Assembly (NCBI GenBank): GCA_958295905.1
Contig: OY282382.1
Location: forward strand, 1,202,001-1,266,000
Length of the DNA stretch: 64,000 nt
Source: an uncultured Vicinamibacterales bacterium
Lineage (GTDB): Bacteria > Acidobacteriota > Vicinamibacteria > Vicinamibacterales > UBA8438
Reading direction: 5' to 3'
Part shown: in pieces, positions 10,969 to 21,431 of the stretch
Position numbering within the stretch: the first letter of the stretch is position 1
Layout of the letters: each line of letters begins with the position of its first letter
Translations under genes and position numbers: made by a program
Notes under the pieces: model-generated
Database searches by the model: none
Seen by the model: only the letters and a program-made list of their open reading frames with translations
Told to the model about the DNA's origin: nothing

Positions 10969-11048
10969 TGGCGGGGAACGATATCACGAGCGGCCGGCGC
11001 TCCGGGTTGATCGGGTCGAGTGCGGAGTGCCAGAATGGCCTGTCTGGA

Positions 11049-11147
11049 TCAGGAGTCCGCGCCGTGGGACGATGCGGAATCCTGGAGGTTGGTTGGGCGG
11101 CGGCGCCGCATGGCGGCGTCGGAGCGGCCGGCGGCGATTGCCGGGCT
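11049..11147 (+). repeat. hairpin repeat, diverged copy upstream of cytochrome c
   Basis: This is a diverged copy of the family best seen at 15748. It keeps GGAGTCCGCGCCGT, then TCCTGGAGGTTGGTTGGGCG and the ending GCGATTGCCGGGCT, with an inserted GC-rich middle. The 5' part can still fold into a hairpin, with about 13 of 15 positions paired. It lacks a clean CTAG at either end. It ends 26 bases before the ATG of the cytochrome c gene and would be in its leader. Confidence 0.65.
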
Positions 11148-11173
11148 GCGGAGACTTCGACAGGAGACGACGG

Positions 11174-11647
11174 ATGAACAGGTGGTTGACCGTGTGGGGT
11201 TCGGCGGGGGCGTTGGCGTTCGGGCTGGTGGGCGGCGCGGCGGTCGAGACCGCGCCGGGCGTCGGGGCGGCGTTCCCCGCGGCGATGCAGGAGACCGCCA
11301 GCTCGACCCTCGACGGCGTGTTCACGTCCGCGCAGGCGCGCCGCGGGCGGCGCGTCTACAACCAGAACTGCGCGTCCTGCCACGGACAGGGCCTGCGGGG
11401 CGGCGAGATGGCGCCGGGCATCGCGGGCAGCGATTTCATCGTGTTCTGGACCGAGCTGCCGGTGGGGTCCCTGTTCGAGCGGATCCGGGTGTCGATGCCC
11501 GAGGACGGGCCGGGGCGGTTGTCGGACGAGGAGTACACCGACGTGGTGGCCTACATGCTCGACCGGAACGACTATCCGTCCGGCGACACCGAGCTTCCCG
11601 CGGACAAGGCGGCGCTCGACGAGATCATGATCGTGGCGGCCGAGTAG
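11174..11647 (+). CDS. secreted monoheme c-type cytochrome
   Basis: This is a small periplasmic electron carrier. The 157-residue protein begins with a signal-like N terminus (MNRWLTVWGSAGALAFGLVGG), then the heme attachment motif CASCH at residues 66-70, and a C-terminal helix DEEYTDVVAYMLDRN as in class I cytochromes. Met in VSMPED may be the axial ligand. A good ribosome-binding site (AGGAGA) lies 8 bases upstream. It is on the plus strand between hemL and hemB, which are both minus, and so looks inserted into the heme operon. A hairpin repeat precedes it. Electron partners are unknown. Confidence 0.9.
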   Translation: MNRWLTVWGSAGALAFGLVGGAAVETAPGVGAAFPAAMQETASSTLDGVFTSAQARRGRRVYNQNCASCHGQGLRGGEMAPGIAGSDFIVFWTELPVGSLFERIRVSMPEDGPGRLSDEEYTDVVAYMLDRNDYPSGDTELPADKAALDEIMIVAAE

Positions 11648-11659
11648 GCTCCGCCGGCC

Positions 11660-11693
11660 CCGCGCCCCGCGCCCCGCCGGCCGCGGGGCGCGG
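11660..11693. terminator. GC-rich hairpin between convergent cytochrome c and hemB
   Basis: CCGCGCCCCGC (11660-11670) pairs perfectly with GCGGGGCGCGG (11683-11693) across a 12-base loop, in the 50-base gap between two convergent genes. There is no T-run, so it is a structural candidate rather than a proven intrinsic terminator. It could act on both strands. Confidence 0.4.
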
Positions 11694-11697
11694 CCGC

Positions 11698-12744
11698 TCA
11701 CCCGTCCTGCCCCGCCAGCGTGCGGGCCGCCTCCCGGGCGTAGTAGGTGATGAGGATGTCGGCGCCCGCCCGGTGGATGGCGGTCAGGGTCTCCAGCATG
11801 ACCCGCGGCTCGTCTATCCAGCCGAGCCGCGCCGCCGCTTTCGCCATCGCGTACTCGCCGCTTACCTGATAGGCGGCGGTCGGCCGCTGGAAGCGGGCCT
11901 TCACCCGGTGAATCACGTCCAGGCAGGGCATCGCCGGCTTGACCATGACGATGTCCGCGCCTTCCTCCAGGTCGAGGGCCACCTCGCGCAGCGCCTCGTC
12001 GGTGTTGGCGGGGTCCATCTGGTGGGTCCGCCGGTCGCCGAACGCCGGCGCCGAGTCGGCGGCGTCCCGGAACGGACCGTAGAACGCCGAGCAGTACTTC
12101 GCGGCGTAGGACATGATGGACACGTCCTCGAAGCCCCGGGCGTCGAGTCCCGTCCGGATCGCTCCGATCCGTCCGTCCATCATGTCGGACGGGGCGACGA
12201 TATGGGCGCCGGCCTCGGCATGCGACACCGCCGCCTCCACGAGATGCGCGACGGTGACGTCGTTGAGAATCGTCTCGCCGTCGAGAACGCCGCAGTGGCC
12301 GTGCGACGTGTACTCGCACAGGCAGACGTCGGTGACGACCGCGACGTCGTCGAGGCGGCCGCGTATCGCGCGGACCGCGGTCTGGACGGGGGCCGCCGGG
12401 TCGGCGGCGGCGGTGCCCCGGTCGTCCTTGGAGGCGGGCAGCCCGAACAGCAGCACCGCCCGCACCCCGTCCGCCCGGGCGGCGGCGGCCTCGTCGACCG
12501 CTTCGTCGACCGACAACTGGCAGACCCCCGGCATCGACGGCACCTCGCGCCGCACCCCCGCGCCGTCGCACACGAACAACGGGTAGACGAGCATGTCGGC
12601 CGACAACCGGGTCTCGCGCACCAGATCGCGAATCGCGGCGGTGCGGCGCAGCCGGCGGGGCCGGTGTCTCAGTCCGCCGGCGTCCCCGCGCGTCGGGGGC
12701 CCGGCGGCGGGCGCGTCGAATACGCGGGTGTCGATGGTCGTCAT
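11698..12744 (-). CDS. hemB: delta-aminolevulinic acid dehydratase (porphobilinogen synthase)
   Basis: This enzyme condenses two 5-aminolevulinates to porphobilinogen. The 348-residue protein carries the cysteine-rich zinc site DVCLCEYTSHGHCG, which points to a Zn-dependent rather than Mg-only enzyme. The Schiff-base lysines are in SYAAKYCSAFYGPFRDA and MVKPAMPCLDVI. SDMMDGRIGAIR is also diagnostic. ATG 12744 overlaps the hemD stop in an ATGA junction, so hemD and hemB are translationally coupled. A short Pro/Arg-rich N-terminal extension precedes the conserved RRLRR region. Confidence 0.96.
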   Translation of the reverse strand: MTTIDTRVFDAPAAGPPTRGDAGGLRHRPRRLRRTAAIRDLVRETRLSADMLVYPLFVCDGAGVRREVPSMPGVCQLSVDEAVDEAAAARADGVRAVLLFGLPASKDDRGTAAADPAAPVQTAVRAIRGRLDDVAVVTDVCLCEYTSHGHCGVLDGETILNDVTVAHLVEAAVSHAEAGAHIVAPSDMMDGRIGAIRTGLDARGFEDVSIMSYAAKYCSAFYGPFRDAADSAPAFGDRRTHQMDPANTDEALREVALDLEEGADIVMVKPAMPCLDVIHRVKARFQRPTAAYQVSGEYAMAKAAARLGWIDEPRVMLETLTAIHRAGADILITYYAREAARTLAGQDG

Positions 12745-13616
12745 CGGGCTTCCTCCCCGGCGGTCTCGGCCCGGCTCGGGGTCCGGCCGCGGTCGGCGAA
12801 GCGGTCGGCGATCGCCTGCAGCATCGCCGGCACCGTGGACTGCGCCGGCATGATCGTGGCGGCGATGTCCAGCCGGCCCGCCGCCTCGGCGGTCACCGGA
12901 CCGATACACGCGATCTCCACCGGCCGCAGCAGCTCCGCCGCCTCCCCGCCGATCGCCCGCGCGAAGTTCCGGACGCCCGACCCGCTCGTGAACGTGACGA
13001 CGTCGACCGCACGTTCGCGCAGCATCCGGCGGATGTCCGGACCCCCGGGGTCGAGGCCCACCGGCACGGTGCGATAGGCGGTGACCGCGGTCACGTCGGC
13101 GCCGGCCCTCCGCAACGCCGCCGGCAGCACGTCCCGGGCCAGATTCGCGCGCGGCAGCAGCACCCGGACGCCCGCCAGATCCGCCTGCCCATGCAGGGCG
13201 CGGATGACGCCCTCGGCGCGGTACTCCTCCGGCACCAGATCGATCCGCAGTCCCCGGCCGGCGAGGGCCTCGGCGGTGGCGGCGCCGACCGCGCAGAGGC
13301 GCACGCCCCGGAGGGCGCGCACGCCCCCGGCGCCGTCCGGCAAGTGCCGCAGGAAGCGGGTCACCGCATTGACGCTCGTGAAGACCACCCAGTCGAACGT
13401 CCCGATCCGGGCGCACGCCGCGTCGATCGGTCCCGCGTCCTCGGGGGGGACGATCGCGATCGTCGGCACTTCAATGGCCTCGGCCCCCAGCGCCTCGAGC
13501 CGAGCCACCATCTCCGCCGCCTGGGCCTTCGCGCGGGTCACGACGACCCGCACCCCGGCGAGGGGCGGGGGGGCGAGCCGTGTGCGGGCCCGCGTCGTGC
13601 CGGCGTCCTGTCCCAT
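12741..13616 (-). CDS. hemD: uroporphyrinogen-III synthase
   Basis: The enzyme cyclises hydroxymethylbilane with inversion of ring D. The family is poorly conserved, but the 291-residue protein shows the expected two-lobed pattern: VVVTRAKAQAAEMVARLEALGAE at the N terminus in two contiguous pieces, DWVVFTSVNAVTRFL, then VLLPRANLARDVLPAALR and DVVTFTSGSGVRNF. IACIGPVTAEAA near the C terminus is typical. Position next to hemB supports the call. It starts at ATG 13616, only 39 bases after vapC on the same strand, so it may receive transcription from the toxin-antitoxin promoter. Confidence 0.9.
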   Translation of the reverse strand: MGQDAGTTRARTRLAPPPLAGVRVVVTRAKAQAAEMVARLEALGAEAIEVPTIAIVPPEDAGPIDAACARIGTFDWVVFTSVNAVTRFLRHLPDGAGGVRALRGVRLCAVGAATAEALAGRGLRIDLVPEEYRAEGVIRALHGQADLAGVRVLLPRANLARDVLPAALRRAGADVTAVTAYRTVPVGLDPGGPDIRRMLRERAVDVVTFTSGSGVRNFARAIGGEAAELLRPVEIACIGPVTAEAAGRLDIAATIMPAQSTVPAMLQAIADRFADRGRTPSRAETAGEEAR

Positions 13617-13655
13617 GACCAGGTTCGTGCGCGTCCGGGCCGCCCTCCCCGCGGA

Positions 13656-14093
13656 TCAGCCGTCCCGACCGGTGACGGGGTTGTGCCACTTCACGTGCGG
13701 AAAGCGGGCAAAATCGGCGTCGGCGGTGTGAATGACGGCGCGGTGCCGAATCCCCATCGCGGCGATCAGCGCATCGGTCGCCAGTCCGCCCGCTCCCGCG
13801 CCTTCGATGAGTGCGAGCGCCCTGTCCAGATCGAGACCGTCCGCCCCGAGCACCGTCACCATCGACCGGTCGAGCCAGCGGCGAACTTCCGCCGCCGCCT
13901 CGTCCGGCGTGAACGGATTGCCGAAGCCGGCCCTGCTCGTGCTCACCCGGACGAATGCGAGCACGACGACCGGGACCACCCCGATCGTTTCGTCCCCGTT
14001 CAGACAGTCCAACCACCATCCGGCGGCGACGCGGTGGAAGGGGCTCGACGAATCGCAGGCATACAGGAGAAGGTTCGCGTCCGGGATGATCAC
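13656..14093 (-). CDS. vapC: VapC-type PIN-domain ribonuclease toxin
   Basis: This is a probable toxin of a type II toxin-antitoxin pair, a Mg-dependent RNase with a PIN fold. The 145-residue protein opens with MIIPDANLLLYACD (first acidic residue Asp5). It continues with VVPVVVLAFVRVSTSR, typical of one VapC subgroup, and ends with GLATDALIAAMGIRHRA and IHTADADFARFP, which hold the other active-site Asp residues. It starts with GTG 14093, overlapping the antitoxin stop by four bases (GTGA). hemD lies 39 bases downstream. Whether it is active and which RNA it cuts cannot be told. Confidence 0.85.
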   Translation of the reverse strand: MIIPDANLLLYACDSSSPFHRVAAGWWLDCLNGDETIGVVPVVVLAFVRVSTSRAGFGNPFTPDEAAAEVRRWLDRSMVTVLGADGLDLDRALALIEGAGAGGLATDALIAAMGIRHRAVIHTADADFARFPHVKWHNPVTGRDG

Positions 14094-14374
14094 CGCGTCG
14101 TCTGCTCCCGTACGAGACGCACCGTCAGCGCCTTGAAGCGCTCGACCTCCAGCGCGGTGTCGAGGTCGTGCGCCCGGGTCGGATCGACTCCCGCCCGCAG
14201 ATGCATCGGCTTGGCCATGATCGTGAATCGTGGTTCGGCGCCCGCGCCGACGGAGATCCTGAGGCCCCGTCGAACGGCGTCGTTGAGCGCCGCCTTGAAG
14301 CTGAGGTTGTGCTCACGCATCGCACTGCGGAGCAGACGTTCCGTGTCGGCTTCAAGGGTGACCGTGGTTCTCAT
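14090..14374 (-). CDS. vapB: VapB-type ribbon-helix-helix antitoxin
   Basis: This is the antitoxin partner of the PIN toxin. The 94-residue protein has an N-terminal ribbon-helix-helix pattern, MRTTVTLEADTERLLRSAM followed by SFKAALNDAVRRGL, which should bind operator DNA as a dimer. The C-terminal half (MAKPMHLRAGVDPTRAHDLD) would wrap the toxin. A perfect inverted repeat overlaps its start codon and a promoter lies directly upstream, consistent with autoregulation. The module sits between hemC and hemD and breaks an otherwise conserved heme gene order. Confidence 0.82.
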   Translation of the reverse strand: MRTTVTLEADTERLLRSAMREHNLSFKAALNDAVRRGLRISVGAGAEPRFTIMAKPMHLRAGVDPTRAHDLDTALEVERFKALTVRLVREQTTR

Positions 14375-14411
14375 GATGAAGCATCATGATGCGGTTCGAT
14401 GGTGCTGTCAA
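14371..14411 (-). promoter_or_regulatory. vapBC promoter with overlapping palindromic operator
   Basis: On the minus strand TTGACA (14411-14406) is followed after 17 bases by CATGAT (14388-14383). A perfect inverted repeat, TCATGATG-AAG-CATCATGA (14371-14389), covers the -10 and the vapB ATG. The predicted transcript would begin only a few bases before the ATG, so the mRNA may be almost leaderless. Binding of the VapB dimer here would block the promoter. Confidence 0.6.
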
Positions 14412-14653
14412 GACTGCACGTGCGCGGGCCGGACCCGGCGCGACGTACCGGCGTCGCGGTCGTCAGCCGACGATCGCCTGCGCCGCCGCAGGGCCTCCAG
14501 ATGCCATCGTAGCATCGATTGCAGGTTAGAGTATGTAGAAGACTGGAAGTCCGGCCGGGGAGGCGCGCCGCAGAACGGCGCGGTTTCCAGGAGGGCCGCC
14601 GGGGGGAGCTCGGCGGCGCAACCAATTCCGGTTGCCGGTTCCCGGGGTATCTG
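14412..14653. other. intergenic region vapBC - Cache gene
   Basis: The region lies between divergent vapB and the Cache-like gene. It contains no gene I can support. A diverged hairpin repeat occupies its right part. Repeated GATCG- and CGATCG-like words occur near 14455-14520 without clear structure. Confidence 0.45.
14545..14645 (+). repeat. hairpin repeat, most diverged copy
   Basis: The core (14564-14595) reads CGCGCCGCAGAACGGCGCGG then TTTCCAGGAGGG, matching the family consensus at about 27 of 30 positions. The flanks are more divergent, though a TTGCCGGTTCCCGGGG ending resembles the family 3' end. It lies directly in front of the Cache-like gene, in the same orientation. Boundaries are approximate. 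Confidence 0.5.
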
Positions 14654-15655
14654 ATGATGGGCACTATCTCGCTGGCCACGGTGGCGCGCGCACTGGACAC
14701 GATGCTCGACGGCGAGATGACCGCGCAGGCGCGCATCGCCGCGCAACTCGTGGCGGCGGCGGAAGCGGCCGGGCACGACGCGGGGCGGCTGATCGAGACC
14801 CTCGACACCGTCGCCGCGGGGACGGTGCTCGACGAGATCTGGGTCTCCGACGATCGCGGCGTCGTCTATCTCACCAACGTCCGGGACGCAGCCGGGGCGC
14901 CGATGCCGTTCCGCTTCCAGGCCGATCCCGCGGTGCAGCCCCAAGCCTTCGCGTTCCATGGTCTGCTGGCGTGCCCCCTCGACGGAGACGACGTCGTCGC
15001 GCAGGCGGCGCAGGTGCGGGAGATCGACAACGAGGTCTACAAGTACGTGGGCGTCGGCGGCGTCGACCGGCATCGGATCGTGCAGGTCGGCAACGCCCTC
15101 GCCTTCGAGGAGCAGGGTCTGGGCGACGTCTATACCTCGCCGGTCATGACCGCGGTGCTGGCCGCGTTCGGCGAGCCCGAGCTGTTGAGCAACTCCCATA
15201 CCAACCGTCTCGCCGAGATCCGGGCCGTCTTCGAGGCGATTCTCGGCCGGCAGATGGTCGTGCAGGCCGTGCTCGTGGACGCCTTTGCCGGGGCGGCCGA
15301 GGCGGCGGGGTGGACCGCGGAGGAGATCGACGGCCGATTGCGGCGCATCGTGCGATCGAGCCCCGACGGCGAGATTCACGTCCTGGGGCCGGGAGGCGAT
15401 CCGGTCTACTCGAGCCGCCCCGAGACCCTCACCGGGGACCCGAGGGGGGCCGGGGACGACGCCCCGGGGCCGCTCGTGGACGAGACGCAGCGCGTCTGGG
15501 AACCCCCCATCGCGCCGCGCGCATCCGATGGCGCCCTCTGCAAGACCGTCACGGTGGCGGGGGCACGCATGGCCCGGGCCGTGCGGGTGGGGTTTCGGGT
15601 CGACGACGGTTCGCTCGTCTCCCCCCGGTTCCGGGCGGCCGCTTCGGCGGAGTGA
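14654..15655 (+). CDS. Cache-like sensor protein with internal duplication, no output domain
   Basis: I recognise the first half only by resemblance to Cache sensor domains of chemoreceptors: VLDEIWVSDDRGVVYLTN, QPQAFAFHGLL, then AQVREIDNEVYKYVGVGGVD and RIVQVG. The second half (from about residue 190) repeats the helix-then-strand layout: EIRAVFEAILGRQMVVQAV, AAEAAGWTAEEIDGRL, EIHVLGPGGDPVYSS. The protein thus looks like two degenerate copies of one domain in tandem. There are 333 residues, with no signal peptide, membrane segment, kinase, cyclase or methyl-accepting part. It starts at ATG 14654 (or 14657) and is bracketed by two hairpin repeats in direct orientation. Ligand and partners are unknown. 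Confidence 0.6.
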   Translation: MMGTISLATVARALDTMLDGEMTAQARIAAQLVAAAEAAGHDAGRLIETLDTVAAGTVLDEIWVSDDRGVVYLTNVRDAAGAPMPFRFQADPAVQPQAFAFHGLLACPLDGDDVVAQAAQVREIDNEVYKYVGVGGVDRHRIVQVGNALAFEEQGLGDVYTSPVMTAVLAAFGEPELLSNSHTNRLAEIRAVFEAILGRQMVVQAVLVDAFAGAAEAAGWTAEEIDGRLRRIVRSSPDGEIHVLGPGGDPVYSSRPETLTGDPRGAGDDAPGPLVDETQRVWEPPIAPRASDGALCKTVTVAGARMARAVRVGFRVDDGSLVSPRFRAAASAE

Positions 15656-16001
15656 TTCGGAGAGCGGCCCGCTGCCCCTTGCCGGCCCGTGGCGAACCCC
15701 GCGTCGCACGGAGAGCGGCGAGGGCGCTGAAGGACGCCCGTGTCGGACTAGGAGTCTGCGCCGTAGAACGGCGTGGATTCCTGGAGGGTTGGTTGGGCGG
15801 CAATCGGAGCCGCAGGCGACGATTTCCGGGCTGGGTGCGGGGAGGGCGCCTGGCGCGGTGAACAGGTCCCGACGTGTCGTGGCGGCGGGGTGATCGGCGT
15901 CCCCCGAGCATGACGGTTCCGGGCATGGGCAACCGGCGAACAACGCCGTCAGGCGGGATGCATCGCCGCTCGAAGGCAGCGCGCGCTTTCGCCGCGGGCG
16001 G
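15656..16001. other. intergenic region Cache gene - hemC
   Basis: The gap lies between a plus-strand gene end and the 3' end of hemC. It holds the hairpin repeat at 15748-15834. After it comes a GTGAACAGGT that resembles the start of the cytochrome c gene (ATGAACAGGT) at nearly the same distance from the repeat, but the frame closes after 11 codons. No other feature was recognised. Confidence 0.5.
15748..15834 (+). repeat. CTAG-bounded hairpin repeat, short form
   Basis: It begins CTAGGAGTCTGCGCCGTAG and ends GATTTCCGGGCTGG, where a CTAG is expected (one mismatch). The first 33 bases fold into a 15-bp stem with an AGA loop, including three G-U pairs. The tail TTGGTTGGGCGGCAATCGG with GCCGC can form a second short stem. 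The sequence is about 90 percent or more identical to the minus-strand copies at 18334 and 19284. It is not attached to a stop codon here. Confidence 0.75.
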
Positions 16002-16982
16002 TTACCGGGGGGCGCTTGCGTCGCCGTCCGCCGCCGCGCGTTGCGCGGCTTCCAGAATCGGGCCGGCGCCGTCCGCGAGCAGGTCGCGGGCGACGGCCTC
16101 GCCGAGCGCCTGCGCCGCATCGGCCGGCATCGCGGCGTCGCGGCGGAGGCGCCGCGAGCCGTCGAGGGAGGCCACCAGCGCCCGGAGGCGCAGGAGGTCT
16201 CCATCGGCCTCGGCGAGGGCGCCGATCGGCGTCTGACACCCGCCGCCGAGGGCGGTGACCACGGCGCGTTCCGCCGTGAACGCGGCCCGGGCCACCCGGT
16301 CGTCGAGGCCGGCGAGGGCGGCGCCGCTGTCCGCATCGTCGGCGCGGGTCTCGACGGCGACGATGCCCTGTCCGGGGGCGGGCAGGCAGACCTCCGCGTC
16401 GAGCGGCGTCGAGATGCGGTCCGCGAGGCCCAGGCGCTCCAATCCGGCGACGGCCAGCACGAGCAGGTCGTAGCCGCCCGCGTCCAGCTTGTGGAGCCGG
16501 GTTTCGACGTTGCCGCGCACGAGCCGGAACTGCGCGCGCGGCCACGCCCGGCGCAACTGCGCGACCCGCCGGACGCTCCCGCTGCCGACGCGGGGGGCGG
16601 CCGCCCCGTCCACGGCGTTCCCCGCCGTCGACAGCTCGGGCCGCCCGGCGGCTCCGGCCGGCAGCACGACGGCGTCGCGCGGATCCGCCCGCGGCAGCAC
16701 CGCGCCGATGGCGAGCCCGTCCGGCAGTTCGGCCGGCATGTCTTTGGCGCTGTGCACGGCGAGGTCGATGTCGCCGCGAATGAGCGCCTGCTCGATCTCC
16801 TTGACGAAGACGCGCTTGCCGCCGACGTGGGACAGATTGGCCTCGTGGAGCTGATCGCCGGTGGTGGTGATGATGGCCAGCTCGCACTCCCGCCCGCTCC
16901 GGCGCCGAACGCCGTCCGCCACCGCGTTGGCCTGCCAGAGGGCCAGCCTGCTCCCGCGGGTACCGAGTCTGAGCCGGTTCAC
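16002..16982 (-). CDS. hemC: porphobilinogen deaminase (hydroxymethylbilane synthase)
   Basis: The enzyme polymerises four porphobilinogens to hydroxymethylbilane. Motifs are LRLGTRGSRLALWQA, HSAKDMPAELPDGL, GSGSVRRVAQL, VRGNVETRLHKLD, LPAPGQGIVAVETR and GGGCQTPIGALAE, where the Cys binds the dipyrromethane cofactor. The length is 326 residues. Its GTG start (16982) overlaps the hemA stop in a GTGA junction, so hemA-hemC translation is coupled. In the ancestral order hemD would come next; here the Cache gene and vapBC intervene. Confidence 0.96.
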   Translation of the reverse strand: MNRLRLGTRGSRLALWQANAVADGVRRRSGRECELAIITTTGDQLHEANLSHVGGKRVFVKEIEQALIRGDIDLAVHSAKDMPAELPDGLAIGAVLPRADPRDAVVLPAGAAGRPELSTAGNAVDGAAAPRVGSGSVRRVAQLRRAWPRAQFRLVRGNVETRLHKLDAGGYDLLVLAVAGLERLGLADRISTPLDAEVCLPAPGQGIVAVETRADDADSGAALAGLDDRVARAAFTAERAVVTALGGGCQTPIGALAEADGDLLRLRALVASLDGSRRLRRDAAMPADAAQALGEAVARDLLADGAGPILEAAQRAAADGDASAPR

Positions 16983-18328
16983 GACGCCACCGGGGTCTTC
17001 GAGGTCGCGGCGGGTTCGCGGTCCTCCTCCATCCCGCCGGCGAGGGAGGAGGCGCCGGACCGGTTCTCTTCCAGATCGAAGAGCCGGGTCACCGCGTCGG
17101 CGTACTGGGCCGCGGTCGCCGCGTCGCGGGCCGACTTGAGGCGTTCGGTCGGCGTCAGAAGCAGCTTTTGGACCAGGACCCGCGTGATTTCCTCCACCCG
17201 GGCCCGGGCCTCGGGGGGGAACCGGTTCAGCTTCGGTTCGAGCCGCTCGAGCTCGGCCCGGCGCACCGCCTCGAACCGGCGGCGCAGGGCGACGACGGTC
17301 GGGATCGCCCCCCGCGAACGGAGCCAGACGAGGAATTCCTCCGTCGCATCCGAGACCATCGCTTCGGCCCGAGAGGTCTGTTCCTGCCGCCGCGCCAGAT
17401 TCTCGCTGACGATGGTCCGCAGGTCGTCGATGTTGTAGAGGAACACCTGCTCGAGGTCGCCGGACTCGGGGGCGACGTCCCGCGGCAGGCCGACGTCGAT
17501 GATGAACAGCGGCCGGTTCCGGCGCGCGTGCATGACCGGCTCGATCGACGCCCGGGTCAGGATCGGCGCGGGGGCGCCGGTGGCCGTCACCACGACGTCC
17601 ACCTGCAGCAGCGCCTCGTCGATGGCCGACCAGTCCACCGCCACGCCGTCGACCTTGCCGGCCAGCTCCGAGGCCCGGGCCAAGGTTCGGCTGGTGACCG
17701 TGATCCGCCGCACCTGTTGCGACCGCAGGTGCACCGCGGTCAACTCGGCCATTTCGCCGGCCCCGATGACCAGCACCGAGAGCCCCTTCAGGTTGCCGAA
17801 GATCTTCCGGGCCAGCGAAATCGCCGCGAAGCTGACGGACACCGCCCCTTCGCCCAGACCGGTGTCCGCCCGTACCTGCTTGCCGACCGCGAACGACCAC
17901 GGGAAGAGCTTGTTCAGCAACGTGCCGGTGCGCCGCTCGCCGGCCGCGGTGGCGTAGGCATCCTTGACCTGCCCGAATATCTGCGGCTCGCCGACGACCA
18001 GCGAATCGAGACCGGCCGCGACCCGGAACAGGTGCTGCGCGACGGCGCCCTCGGTCCGCGCGTACAAATGCGGGGCCAGCTCGCTTTCGGGGATGTCGTG
18101 AAACCGGCTCATGAAGCCCGCAAGATCGTCGCGCGCGCGCTCGGTGTCATCGCAGGCCACGTAGATCTCCGACCGGTTGCAGGTGGTCAGCACGACCGAC
18201 TCGGCCGGGGACGGACAGCGGGCCAGTTCCCGGAGCGCGGTGACGATGCCGCGTTTCGAGAAGTCGACCCGCTCGCGCAGATCGACCGGCGCCGTGTGGT
18301 GGCTCACGCCGAGCAACAACAGGTTCAT
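16979..18328 (-). CDS. hemA: glutamyl-tRNA reductase
   Basis: This NADPH enzyme reduces glutamyl-tRNA to glutamate-1-semialdehyde, the first and usually controlling step of C5-pathway heme synthesis. It starts MNLLLLGVSHHTAPVDLRE, with the catalytic Cys in LTTCNRSEIY, then GEPQIFGQVK, and the dinucleotide fold LSVLVIGAGEMAELTAVHL. IDVGLPRDV and a C-terminal dimerisation helix follow. The length is 449 residues. The start ATG (18328) lies 5 bases from the end of a hairpin repeat, so the leader and any ribosome-binding site lie in or next to the repeat; no good Shine-Dalgarno is visible. Confidence 0.96.
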   Translation of the reverse strand: MNLLLLGVSHHTAPVDLRERVDFSKRGIVTALRELARCPSPAESVVLTTCNRSEIYVACDDTERARDDLAGFMSRFHDIPESELAPHLYARTEGAVAQHLFRVAAGLDSLVVGEPQIFGQVKDAYATAAGERRTGTLLNKLFPWSFAVGKQVRADTGLGEGAVSVSFAAISLARKIFGNLKGLSVLVIGAGEMAELTAVHLRSQQVRRITVTSRTLARASELAGKVDGVAVDWSAIDEALLQVDVVVTATGAPAPILTRASIEPVMHARRNRPLFIIDVGLPRDVAPESGDLEQVFLYNIDDLRTIVSENLARRQEQTSRAEAMVSDATEEFLVWLRSRGAIPTVVALRRRFEAVRRAELERLEPKLNRFPPEARARVEEITRVLVQKLLLTPTERLKSARDAATAAQYADAVTRLFDLEENRSGASSLAGGMEEDREPAATSKTPVAS

Positions 18329-18333
18329 GCGGA

Positions 18334-18421
18334 CTAGCCCGGAAATCGTCGCCTGCGGCTCCGATTGCCGCCCAACCAACCCTCCAGGAATCCGCGCCGT
18401 TCTACGGCGGCAGATTCCTAG
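18334..18421 (-). repeat. CTAG-bounded hairpin repeat between hemX and hemA
   Basis: This is an 88-bp copy with perfect CTAG at both ends (18334-18337, 18418-18421). Read on the minus strand it begins with the TAG stop of hemX and ends five bases before the hemA ATG. The stem differs from other copies by an A-U pair in place of a G-U pair and by one bulged C, so pairing is kept. It fills the whole hemX-hemA gap. Confidence 0.8.
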
Positions 18422-19239
18422 AAGTTGTGGCTCTCCGTCAGGAAGTACCCCACCGGCACCAGGTTGACGAGGACGATGGAGAATCCCAGCGCCGACAGCC
18501 AGGCCGCGCGGCGGCCGCTCCATCCGATGGCCCGGCGCGCATAGAGCTCGAAGGAATAGATGGCCCAGCTCAGCAACACCACGAAGATCTTCGGGTCGGA
18601 GAACGACATCGCGAGCACCCGGGGGTCCGAGGTGTCGGGCTGGAGCCGCAGCGCCCAGGCCACGCCGACGGCCAGACCCGCCGTCAGAAACAGCCACCCG
18701 ATGCCGACCGCGCGTCCGTTCATCACGTCTATCACGTGCAGCGAGGGGAGCCGCGCGGCGAAGAACCCGAGCTGCTTCGACTTCAGCTCGCGGAACAGCA
18801 GGACGTAAGTGATGCCGACGACACAGGCGAGCGCGAACGCGGCGTAGGCGAAGAGCAGCGAAACCACGTGCGCGGCGAGCAGGGGGCTGTCGAGAATCGC
18901 GGCCGGCTCGCTCACGGTCCCGCTCACGGTCGAGATTGTCTGGAGCGCGACGAGCAACGGGGCGATGAAGACGCCGAGGGCGCGTTCGTCGGTGGTGACC
19001 TCCGTATAGAGATAGGCGACCGCCAGCATCCACACGAACGCGGAGATCGCCGAGGCGGTGCCGACGAGCGGGAGGTGGCCGACCTCCACCGTCCGCATCC
19101 CGATGACGAACGTGTGGATGAGGGCGGCGGCCGCCAGCGAGGCGGTCGCGAGCCGGCCCGCCCGGGAGTCCCGCCGCACGAAGAACACGGTGTAGACGAC
19201 GCCCGCGACGAGATACAGCAGAAGCGGGAGGAGGGTCAT
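18418..19239 (-). CDS. hemX: HemX/CcsA-family membrane protein
   Basis: This is a polytopic membrane protein (273 residues, about eight hydrophobic segments) of the cytochrome c assembly/CcsA superfamily. Position directly before hemA matches HemX of heme operons, which is thought to affect HemA level or heme handling. Conserved-looking histidines occur in HTFVIGMRTVEVGHLPLVGT, LAAHVVSLLFAYAAFALAC and SLHVIDVMN. The tryptophan-rich WWD heme-binding motif of true CcsA/CcmC is not apparent; FSDPKIFVVLLSWAIYSFEL occupies the place of the usual WDPKE block. HemX is therefore favoured over a complete cytochrome c synthetase. Its TAG stop lies in a hairpin repeat. Confidence 0.75.
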   Translation of the reverse strand: MTLLPLLLYLVAGVVYTVFFVRRDSRAGRLATASLAAAALIHTFVIGMRTVEVGHLPLVGTASAISAFVWMLAVAYLYTEVTTDERALGVFIAPLLVALQTISTVSGTVSEPAAILDSPLLAAHVVSLLFAYAAFALACVVGITYVLLFRELKSKQLGFFAARLPSLHVIDVMNGRAVGIGWLFLTAGLAVGVAWALRLQPDTSDPRVLAMSFSDPKIFVVLLSWAIYSFELYARRAIGWSGRRAAWLSALGFSIVLVNLVPVGYFLTESHNF

Positions 19240-19283
19240 GGGTTCGTGAACTGTTCGGCCGAGGGGGAACCCGACCGCCCGGG

Positions 19284-19357
19284 CGCCGCCTGCGGCTCCG
19301 ATTGCCGCCCAACCAACCCTCCAGGAATCCGCGCCGTTCTACGGCGCAGACTCCTAG
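19284..19357 (-). repeat. hairpin repeat, 3'-truncated, between VWA gene and hemX
   Basis: Read on the minus strand it begins CTAGGAGTCTGCGCCGTAG, whose TAG is the stop codon of the upstream VWA gene. The perfect 15-bp hairpin (two G-U pairs, AGA loop) is present. The last 13 or so bases of the family, including the second CTAG, are missing. It ends 44 bases before the hemX ATG. Confidence 0.78.
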
Positions 19358-20472
19358 TTCATGGTCGGCGCGTAGTAGCCCTGCTTCGTTCGTGCGGCGA
19401 CGTTCGGCTGGTCGATGCGGACGACGAGCCGCCGCCACTGGCCGTCCCGTAATGGGTTCTTCGAGCTGTACCCCAGCGTGTACTGGCTCGACAGCTCGTC
19501 CGATATCTGACCGTAGATCGCAGCGAGGTCGTCCACGCGCTGCGGGAAGAAGGCCCGGCCGCCGGTCTCCTGCGCGAGTTGGCGCAGCACGAAGTCGGCC
19601 TCGCGGAACCCGCGCCGCGTGCGGATGTCCCGTGAGCGCAACCCGATCGAATAGATGACGGTGTCGGAACGTTTCGCCAGCTCGAGAACCTCGTCGAAGT
19701 CGACGAGGCTCGACGTATCCTCGCCGTCCGAGAGCACGATGATGGCCTGGCGTCGGATGTCGCCGGCGGGAGTGGTCGCGATCTTGGTCAACTCCTTGAG
19801 CGAGATGTAGATGGCGTTGTAGAGCGAGGTCGAGCCCCCGGCGGACGTCCGCCGGATCGCCGTCGCCAGGTCGTCCACCGAGCCGGTGAACCCCTGGCGG
19901 ATCTCGACCCGGCTGTCGAAGTCAATGACGCTGGCCATGTCTTCCGCGCGCAGCCGTTCCGCGAATCCGATGGCGGCCTGCTGCGCCGTTTCCATCTTCT
20001 CGGTCATGCTCGCGCTCGTGTCCATCAGCAGCGACAGCGCGATGGGCAGTTGCGTGCGCGTGAAGAAAGTGATGTCCTGCAGCGCCCCGTCTTCATACAC
20101 CTGGAACCGATCGACGTCGATGTCGGTGACGTACCGGCTGTTCGGGTCGGTCACGGTGACGTTGAGGGAGACCAGATCGACGCCGGCGCGAAACGCCGGC
20201 TCCTGCGACGCCGGCTCCTGCGCGGCGGGGGCGGCGGCGATCAGGCCCGCCAGCGCCGCCGCGGCAGGGCCGCGGAGCGTCCGACGGCCGCGACGGCGAG
20301 CCTCGGAGCGGCGGCAGAGCGCCGGGAGGCGCGGCTGACCGGGATCCGGGCGAAGCTGCCTGTCGGGACCCTGGACACGACGTTGGCGGCCGGCGCGTTG
20401 CGCGTTGCGCGGGCACGGCGCCGCGGGGGCGGTACGACGGGAGGCGCCGGTCGCCGGTCGCAGCTCGGTCAT
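19354..20472 (-). CDS. acidobacterial VWFA-related secreted protein, gene 2 of pair
   Basis: This is a von Willebrand factor A protein of the VWFA-related group abundant in Acidobacteria. After a long basic N-terminal stretch there is a hydrophobic segment (AAAALAGLIAAAPAAQ, likely a signal) and FRAGVDLVSLNVTVTD. The metal-ion site DTSAS follows, then IVLSDGEDTSS. A C-terminal region GYYAPTMN closes the 372-residue protein. ATG 20472 overlaps the stop of the preceding VWA gene (ATGA). The first 70 residues look unlike protein, so the true start may be later. The TAG stop is provided by a hairpin repeat. Role unknown; ligand binding or adhesion is inferred. Confidence 0.82.
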   Translation of the reverse strand: MTELRPATGASRRTAPAAPCPRNAQRAGRQRRVQGPDRQLRPDPGQPRLPALCRRSEARRRGRRTLRGPAAAALAGLIAAAPAAQEPASQEPAFRAGVDLVSLNVTVTDPNSRYVTDIDVDRFQVYEDGALQDITFFTRTQLPIALSLLMDTSASMTEKMETAQQAAIGFAERLRAEDMASVIDFDSRVEIRQGFTGSVDDLATAIRRTSAGGSTSLYNAIYISLKELTKIATTPAGDIRRQAIIVLSDGEDTSSLVDFDEVLELAKRSDTVIYSIGLRSRDIRTRRGFREADFVLRQLAQETGGRAFFPQRVDDLAAIYGQISDELSSQYTLGYSSKNPLRDGQWRRLVVRIDQPNVAARTKQGYYAPTMN

Positions 20473-21431
20473 CGCGGGCCATCTCCTGTCCATCTCGCCG
20501 GCGTCCCGTGGGCCGCCAGATCGGCCCGCCGCATCCGCACCGAGATCGCCTCGGGGGGGACCAAGCTGGCCGGGCGCGAGTACACCAAGTGGTACTGATT
20601 CGCCAGAAGTTCGGTCAGCGCACCCATCGTATCGGGTAGTGCGGTGCTCAACAGCAGGTCGTACCGCTGGCCCCCGGTCGCTTCCGGCAACTCGGCGAGG
20701 GCCCGGTCGCGCTGGTAGAGATCGACGCCTCCGGGGAGGGCGAACCGATTCGCGCGGAGGGCGGTGTTCGCCCGCTCGACCAGCACGATCACGTGGGTGG
20801 CCACCGCGGACTCCTCGAGCGAGTTCTGGAGCCGCCGGGCGCCGTAGCGGCTGTAGTCGAGCCCTTCCGTGGCGACCACGACGATCACCGGCCGGGCCGA
20901 CCCGCGCCGTTCGAATCCGCGGGCCGTCTCCATCAGGGCGTCGAGAAGATAGGCGGCGCTGTCCGAAAACGAGAAGATCCGGCCGATGCCTTCGCGAAGG
21001 CGGTCCAGGCGCCGGGTCGATTCGACGAGGACGCGCGGCGCGCCGCCGAAAGAGACGAGGGCGACGTCGTTGCGTTCCGCGAGGACCGGAACCAGCCGCT
21101 CCAGGCCGTTCCGGATGTCCCGGATCGCGAACGCCGCGGACGCGCTCGTGTCCACGAGCACGGCCACCTGCATCGGTTGCCGGGCCGGCTCGACGCGCAG
21201 GACTTCGCGCTCGACGCCATCCTCTTCGACCACGAACTCCGCCGCAGCCAGATTCGACACCGGTGCGCCCTGCTCGTCAAGCACGCTCACGAACAGGGAC
21301 CGCTCGTTGTCCTGTCCGCGGAGGGGGGCCGCCAGAACCCCCAGCAGACAGGCCGCGGCCAGCGCCGGGAACGCCGGGCGAACCCCGGGCCGTCTGCGGC
21401 GGGCCGTCCGTCCGGGCGCTGGTCGGTGCAT
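20469..21431 (-). CDS. acidobacterial VWFA-related secreted protein, gene 1 of pair
   Basis: This is a second VWA protein of the same type, 320 residues. The chosen ATG 21431 is preceded by GGAGA and gives a basic start then a hydrophobic segment (FPALAAACLLGVLAAPLRGQ, a signal peptide). Next come SLFVSVLDEQGAPVSNL and EFVVEEDGVEREVLRVEP, the metal site DTSAS, and VATEGLDYSRYG. A weak -10 (TATACT at 21480-21475) lies upstream on this strand. It is coupled to the following VWA gene by ATGA. The two share order of motifs but are clearly diverged paralogs. Confidence 0.82.
   Translation of the reverse strand: MHRPAPGRTARRRRPGVRPAFPALAAACLLGVLAAPLRGQDNERSLFVSVLDEQGAPVSNLAAAEFVVEEDGVEREVLRVEPARQPMQVAVLVDTSASAAFAIRDIRNGLERLVPVLAERNDVALVSFGGAPRVLVESTRRLDRLREGIGRIFSFSDSAAYLLDALMETARGFERRGSARPVIVVVATEGLDYSRYGARRLQNSLEESAVATHVIVLVERANTALRANRFALPGGVDLYQRDRALAELPEATGGQRYDLLLSTALPDTMGALTELLANQYHLVYSRPASLVPPEAISVRMRRADLAAHGTPARWTGDGPR

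Follow-up and report, generated by a model that had tools for sequence, protein, structure and literature searches.

Which promoter transcribes hemD and hemB when a toxin-antitoxin (TA) operon stands immediately in front of them? The question is raised by a locus in a stretch of 64,000 nucleotides (the window, G000:C1:1202001-1266000) of the 6.3-Mb genome G000. In the sequence and its open reading frames (ORFs), vapB, vapC, hemD and hemB were found consecutively on the minus strand. The full minus-strand order was hemA, hemC, then an inverted gene on the plus strand, and then vapB, vapC, hemD and hemB. The genes of the locus are as follows.

16979 to 18328, minus strand: hemA, glutamyl-tRNA reductase (TIGR01035, 436.8 bits for 16979-18340; start inferred)
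16002 to 16982, minus strand: hemC, hydroxymethylbilane synthase (TIGR00212, 269.2 bits for 16002-16940; start inferred from the reading frame)
14654 to 15655, plus strand: inverted gene encoding a 333-aa protein, between hemC and vapBC-hemDB; no family assignment
14090 to 14374, minus strand: vapB, antitoxin of 94 aa (ORF and homologs; ribbon-helix-helix N-terminus and long C-terminal helix predicted)
13656 to 14093, minus strand: vapC, PIN ribonuclease toxin of 145 aa (TIGR00028 above cut-off, PF01850)
13617 to 13655, minus strand: vapC-hemD gap of 39 bp, without terminator-like site or unusual fold
12741 to 13616, minus strand: hemD, uroporphyrinogen-III synthase (PF02602, 219.8 bits)
11698 to 12744, minus strand: hemB, porphobilinogen synthase (NF006762, 489.6 bits), overlapping the hemD stop

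HemB also matched PF00490 in Pfam, the hemD query had a single match in G000 at E up to 0.001, and cobA was located elsewhere in the genome (C1:5003092). The 333-aa protein had no match in Pfam, NCBIfam or PADLOC; its gene has an ortholog at the same place in the sister species G002 and homologs at other loci in the family. Fourteen of the 28 family genomes, the source genome among them (C1:4536493), also have stretches homologous to it inside longer reading frames, of 850-877 codons. The GC content of vapBC was 66-68% and that of the hem genes 70-77%, with GC3 of 0.81-0.84 versus 0.92-0.93; the lower GC of vapBC fits its later arrival.

VapC matched TIGR00028 (Mtu_PIN) with 102.4 bits (cut-off 73.6) and PF01850 (PIN) with 42.8 bits (cut-off 23.6), and its closest solved relative by sequence was VapC43 (7vwo, 2.2e-9). 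The gene starts with GTG and overlaps vapB by 4 bp, and the closest homologs are arranged alike. VapB matched no model in Pfam, NCBIfam or PADLOC, and none of the PADLOC defence families was found for VapB, VapC or the 333-aa protein. Among 20 aligned VapB homologs, PF01402 (RHH_1) was detected in three and PF09957 (VapB_antitoxin) in two, and neither in this VapB. A VapB profile searched against PDB sequences returned two designed helical-repeat proteins first (0.001), followed by NikR, a CopG-family protein and VapB26 at 0.017-0.072. The AlphaFold model (pLDDT 83.7, pTM 0.41) contained helices at residues 9-22, 26-43 and 65-93, and the N-terminal stretch before the first two had no assigned strand. 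Through Foldseek, the first six rows obtained with this model were VapB26 (twice), AtaR, CopG, YiiF and CopG; the matches to VapB26, AtaR and CopG had E values of 0.1-1.2 and none was below 0.09. A ribbon-helix-helix fold is plausible from the aligned homologs and the model. With dN/dS values of 0.16-0.42 against three homologs, both VapB and VapC look maintained.

The pair resembles the Mtu_PIN-type VapBC systems (VapC43 7vwo, VapB26 5x3t) in its PIN toxin above cut-off, its overlapping genes and a predicted ribbon-helix-helix antitoxin. It differs from them in that this VapB alone matches no Pfam or NCBIfam model, and in its presumed operator core, GCATCATGATGC. Our best reading is a TA operon of known kind, Mtu_PIN type, with a predicted leaderless promoter. 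The elements in front of vapB are listed below.

14383 to 14411, minus strand: promoter P_vapB, -35 TTGACA (14411-14406), 17-nt spacer, -10 CATGAT (14388-14383), 10 of 12 consensus matches
14371 to 14389, unstranded: inverted repeat TCATGATG-AAG-CATCATGA, exact, both arms perfect, spanning the -10 box and the start codon
14381 to 14392, unstranded: 12-bp palindrome GCATCATGATGC at the -10 box, the presumed operator core, shared with other vapB upstream regions

The -10 box lies only 8 nt before the vapB ATG (14374-14372), and a leaderless mRNA is therefore predicted. P_vapB was the only promoter-like site in 12600-16600, where 50 shuffles gave a mean of 0.0 (sd 0.2). On an approximate sigma-70 matrix, it scored 14.5, above the 99.99% quantile of the whole window (11.1), and it led the hemD strand by a wide margin, the next independent site scoring 7.3.

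Recurrence was examined in 21 distinct vapB upstream regions, including its own, taken from homologs whose match started in the first three residues; L170, L175 and L178, without the N-terminus, were left out. When the -10 box was sought 4 to 10 nt before the vapB start, the best -35/-10 pair had a mean of 9.1 of 12 consensus matches, compared with 5.2 for mononucleotide shuffles. At least 9 of 12 were reached in 14 of the 21 regions and in 0.3% of the mononucleotide shuffles. The box stood exactly 6 nt before the start in 16 regions, and 8 nt before it here and in the closest homolog. Poor fits were L157 (score 6, equalled by 51% of its shuffles) and L156 (score 8, 6%). An exact search of 28 genomes for TTGACA-N17-CATGATG plus 4-8 nt plus RTGMG found eight places in seven genomes, all of them starts of vapB homologs already found, and its reversed control found none; as this grammar was drawn from the same vapB genes, only its specificity is informative. 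The grammar may be of use in detecting antitoxins that lack annotation, this VapB being an example: no profile library searched names it.

Leaderless TA operons are known from transcript mapping: in Mycobacterium tuberculosis, 32 of the 37 TA gene pairs that have a primary start are leaderless (PMC3898074), and PMC8485053 also reports such operons. The likeness is a transcript beginning at the start codon, which is predicted in our case. The difference is that the M. tuberculosis starts were mapped by RNA sequencing and the start here is predicted from sequence, in a family to which Acidobacteria MAGs also belong.

The first-pass annotation had described a nearly leaderless vapB promoter covered by an inverted repeat that reaches the start codon. 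The promoter was borne out by its recurrence in the VapB family, and the repeat by its exactness at 14371-14389; the genome (6.3 Mb) contains no second exact copy, and the best other site has 2 mismatches. The whole repeat was not seen in the other vapB upstream regions compared. Only for the part on the -10 box can the idea that this repeat is an operator be kept, as a presumption. There, GCATCATGATGC was complete (12 of 12) in four of the 21 vapB upstream regions, namely its own and the three closest, and matched at 9-11 of 12 positions at the same place (-16) in nine of the other 17, these being raw match counts without shuffle control. The start-codon arm was absent from the closest homologs' vapB upstream regions and was ruled out as a shared operator. 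Judged by these homologs, only the -10 half of the repeat belongs to the shared palindrome, and the start-codon arm, in our view, either extends it by chance or refines it locally. The palindrome on the -10 box is presumed to be the operator for repression by VapBC.

Between vapC, which ends at 13656, and hemD, which starts at 13616, lie 39 bp. It had been noted that hemD follows vapC at this distance on the same strand with no visible terminator, and this held up: the scan of 12600-16600 for intrinsic-terminator-like sites was empty on either strand, although shuffles average 0.9 sites, so that this absence is weak evidence, and Rho-dependent ends are outside the reach of the scan. An RNA element between vapC and hemD was also considered and found no support, with a fold z-score of +1.4 for 13600-13665 and no match in the gap; the two RNA-family matches in 11000-20500 were both far below the gathering score, and neither was in the gap. 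In its gene order, with the shared strand, the short gap and the empty terminator scan, the locus has the layout expected of a TA read-through operon.

A dispersed hairpin-forming repeat around GCGCCGTAGAACGGCG was observed in the same neighbourhood, at 14550-14599, 15747-15835, 18337-18421 and 19332-19345 of the window, with 11047-11151 as a probable further part. The query 14480-14660 had at least 41 matches in this genome (itself included), at least nine in G001 and at least 19 in G002. Query positions within 11047-11151 matched many places, some of them beside matches of the repeat (for example G001:C506 and G002:C159), and may thus represent another part of the same repeat. Two copies folded better than shuffles (z -3.1 and -5.4), and Rfam gave no match at the copies in 11000-20500.

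TA promoters that feed other genes have been described. In Staphylococcus aureus, read-through of a weak terminator links the mazEF promoter to sigB, and full sigma-B activity requires that promoter (PMC3920265, PMC4428803). That promoter feeds a downstream non-TA operon, as we propose here; it differs in belonging to MazEF instead of VapBC, in having stress regulators downstream where heme enzymes stand here, and in the absence of autoregulation (as stated in PMC3920265), compared with a recurring palindrome on the promoter in our case. In Escherichia coli, mazG is co-transcribed with mazEF (PMC3920265), and the likeness to vapBC-hemDB is a metabolic enzyme gene behind a TA pair, co-transcribed there and presumably here. 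MazG is described as a further control level on MazF (PMC3920265). Neither HemD nor HemB is known to have a control role of the MazG kind. Among the papers listed by the literature searches, judged by titles and abstract openings, no description of vapBC driving hemD was found. As to other vapC copies, three of the five closest (L144, L145 and L147) were followed on the same strand, after 21-52 nt, by an ORF of more than 300 aa; these are ORF calls only, some with long ORFs on the opposite strand, and L143 and L146 were not counted. Read-through from this type of promoter may be common in the family.

We then compared the hem cluster among relatives. Forty-two hem loci were examined, namely the window's own (a cut copy) and those of 41 further genomes; a hemD match had been found in 92 genomes besides this one. 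Both hemC and hemD were present in 38 of them, G002 being one; the other four (L005, which is the window's own, L014, L017 and L033) were cut. With G002 set aside, hemC and hemD lay on one strand in all 37 relatives' loci, with 4-956 nt between the aligned ends. Between them we found cobA in 31 loci and no query gene in six, and in none of the 37 were vapB, vapC or the 333-aa gene found there. Most simply read, the inverted gene and vapBC opened the hem operon in this genus. A scenario in which vapBC inserted into a cobA-hemD fusion and cobA was lost was not favoured, given the six cobA-free loci and the cobA elsewhere in this genome. Close copies of vapBC were not seen in hem clusters elsewhere: the closest ones (72, 70 and 65%) were on contigs other than those with hemD in their draft genomes, and hem queries had no match in their 3.4-kb loci. 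The intact vapBC-hemDB arrangement was seen nowhere beyond this genome among the loci examined.

A separation of about 5.6 kb between hemD and hemB was observed in G017, G022 and G026 (L123, L125, L126 and L035). By this gene order, opening of the hem cluster was not a single event in the family.

The evidence on the sister species is one 5,991-base MAG contig that ends inside hemD (locus L115). The order hemA, hemC, inverted 333-aa gene, hemD was retained there, with 71-82% protein identity. At this locus, vapC and the vapB N-terminus were missing (other, more distant vapC genes exist in that genome), and the vapB tail alone remained, with 47% identity over residues 48-94 (residues 38-91, E 1.4e-7) and, at the DNA level, 75% over 97 nt (E 1.3e-12). 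Neither the vapB promoter nor the palindrome was found in the sequence of this locus inspected. The TGA that closes the relic frame of 62 codons (L115 496-308) overlaps GTGATC, and the GTG in this sequence (L115 311-309) corresponds to the start of vapC here. Since this GTG is the only ATG, GTG or TTG in the hemD frame between the preceding stop and the beginning of HemD homology, hemD of G002 presumably starts at the former vapC start codon. The relic (L115 308-496) has kept an open frame, and since its stop overlaps the start codon presumed for hemD, translation of hemD could be coupled to it. The other genome of the genus, G001, was uninformative, with no hemC or hemD match and only a longer paralog of the 333-aa protein. 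Most likely, vapBC predates the split of the two species and has since decayed in G002.

From these results we propose the following course. The inverted 333-aa gene and vapBC would have come between hemC and hemD in the ancestor of both sister species, and this rearrangement would have cut hemD-hemB off from the hemA-hemC transcript. Because the inverted gene and vapBC separate hemDB from hemC, hemDB probably needs a local promoter here. That promoter is most likely P_vapB, with read-through into hemDB, and VapBC presumably represses its own operon at the -10 palindrome. About 120 nt further upstream, a weaker promoter with its extended -10 at 14511-14506 probably contributes transcripts that also run through vapBC.

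14505 to 14540, minus strand: second promoter candidate, ACATACTCTAACC plus GATGCTACGATG, extended -10 TGC-TACGAT (TACGAT 14511-14506), kept in G002

How the two promoters share the work is where the explanations part. The upstream promoter might be older than the split of the sister species and mainly drive hemDB, with vapBC as a passenger and P_vapB adding little; this is the chief rival, which we consider unlikely. The upstream block, ACATACTCTAACC with GATGCTACGATG, contains identical runs of 13 and 12 bases in an intergenic alignment of 59% ungapped identity; both runs together were reached in 113 of 20,000 alignment column shuffles, but the 13-base run alone in 1672 of 20,000, and the spacing of the two halves differs by 2 nt between the species. 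TGC-TACGAT was the best hemD-strand site in G002 (6.84) and the second best here, where its 7.32 is just above the window 99.9% quantile of 7.04; the G002 score, however, falls below that quantile, and the match to a -35 box is poor. Another vapC of this genome is preceded by a similar site, TGATGCTATGATG, which ends 275 nt upstream of the gene. The block could instead serve the divergent 333-aa gene. Short exact pieces of it were not found within 330 nt upstream of seven homologs of the 333-aa gene at other loci (L129-L135). We regard the conservation of the block as moderate evidence. The possibility that hemD is driven by a weak promoter of its own inside vapC, or by hemA-hemC transcription passing through the inverted gene, seems to us very improbable. 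The site inside vapC, at 13989, scores 5.6 and is below the window 99.9% quantile; in the scanned region without terminator-like sites, transcription from hemC could pass, but about 2.4 kb of read-through would be needed, partly antisense to the 333-aa gene.

It has also to be asked whether the coupling, proposed in the first-pass annotation, is there by design, such that heme supply would rise under stress when VapB is degraded and vapBC-hemDB is freed from repression. The gene anatomy allows such coupling, and the mazEF promoter of S. aureus, which reads through into sigB and responds to stress (PMC3920265), is a precedent. The intact arrangement, however, was seen in this genome only, lost in the sister and missing in 37 relatives' loci. 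Activation of VapC, an RNase toxin, may reduce translation of its own transcript, hemDB included. We give a designed circuit little credence. As the sister species lost TA control and kept hemD, the link between the TA operon and heme genes is probably a lineage-specific consequence of gene order and not a selected heme-stress circuit.

Read-through from P_vapB, partly together with the upstream promoter, is thus what we hold to be the most likely main source of hemDB transcription here, a statement that we would rather defend than deny. Output of the heme genes would then follow VapB-VapC occupancy to some degree; repression by VapBC, co-transcription, the size of the effect and a rise of the heme genes under stress are steps that we infer. 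The proposal of the first-pass annotation that hemDB depends on the TA promoter therefore survived in part. It agrees with the separation of hemDB from hemC and with the highest score of P_vapB. A lasting link was not supported: hemD is in place in G002 without P_vapB and without the DNA-binding part of VapB. The TA promoter is thus dispensable for hemD, and both species have a second promoter candidate upstream of vapBC. The locus, whose known parts are arranged in a slightly unusual way, looks best read as lineage-specific promoter capture by a TA operon, a recent accident of gene order.

A further-reaching version may be offered tentatively, and we think it more doubtful than probable. After splitting the heme operon, the TA module would have become the main promoter of hemD-hemB, and could not have been lost without losing heme synthesis. 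The sister species would have escaped when vapC, P_vapB and the DNA-binding part of vapB were removed, hemD was placed on the vapC start codon and the neighbouring promoter took over. If true, this would be addiction by promoter capture, in which the module is kept whatever its toxin does. The persistence of chromosomal TA modules is still debated in the field; if such a module carries the promoter on which heme genes depend, its retention would have nothing to do with what its toxin does. The species pair, with the module intact here and decayed in G002, makes this idea of persistence testable.
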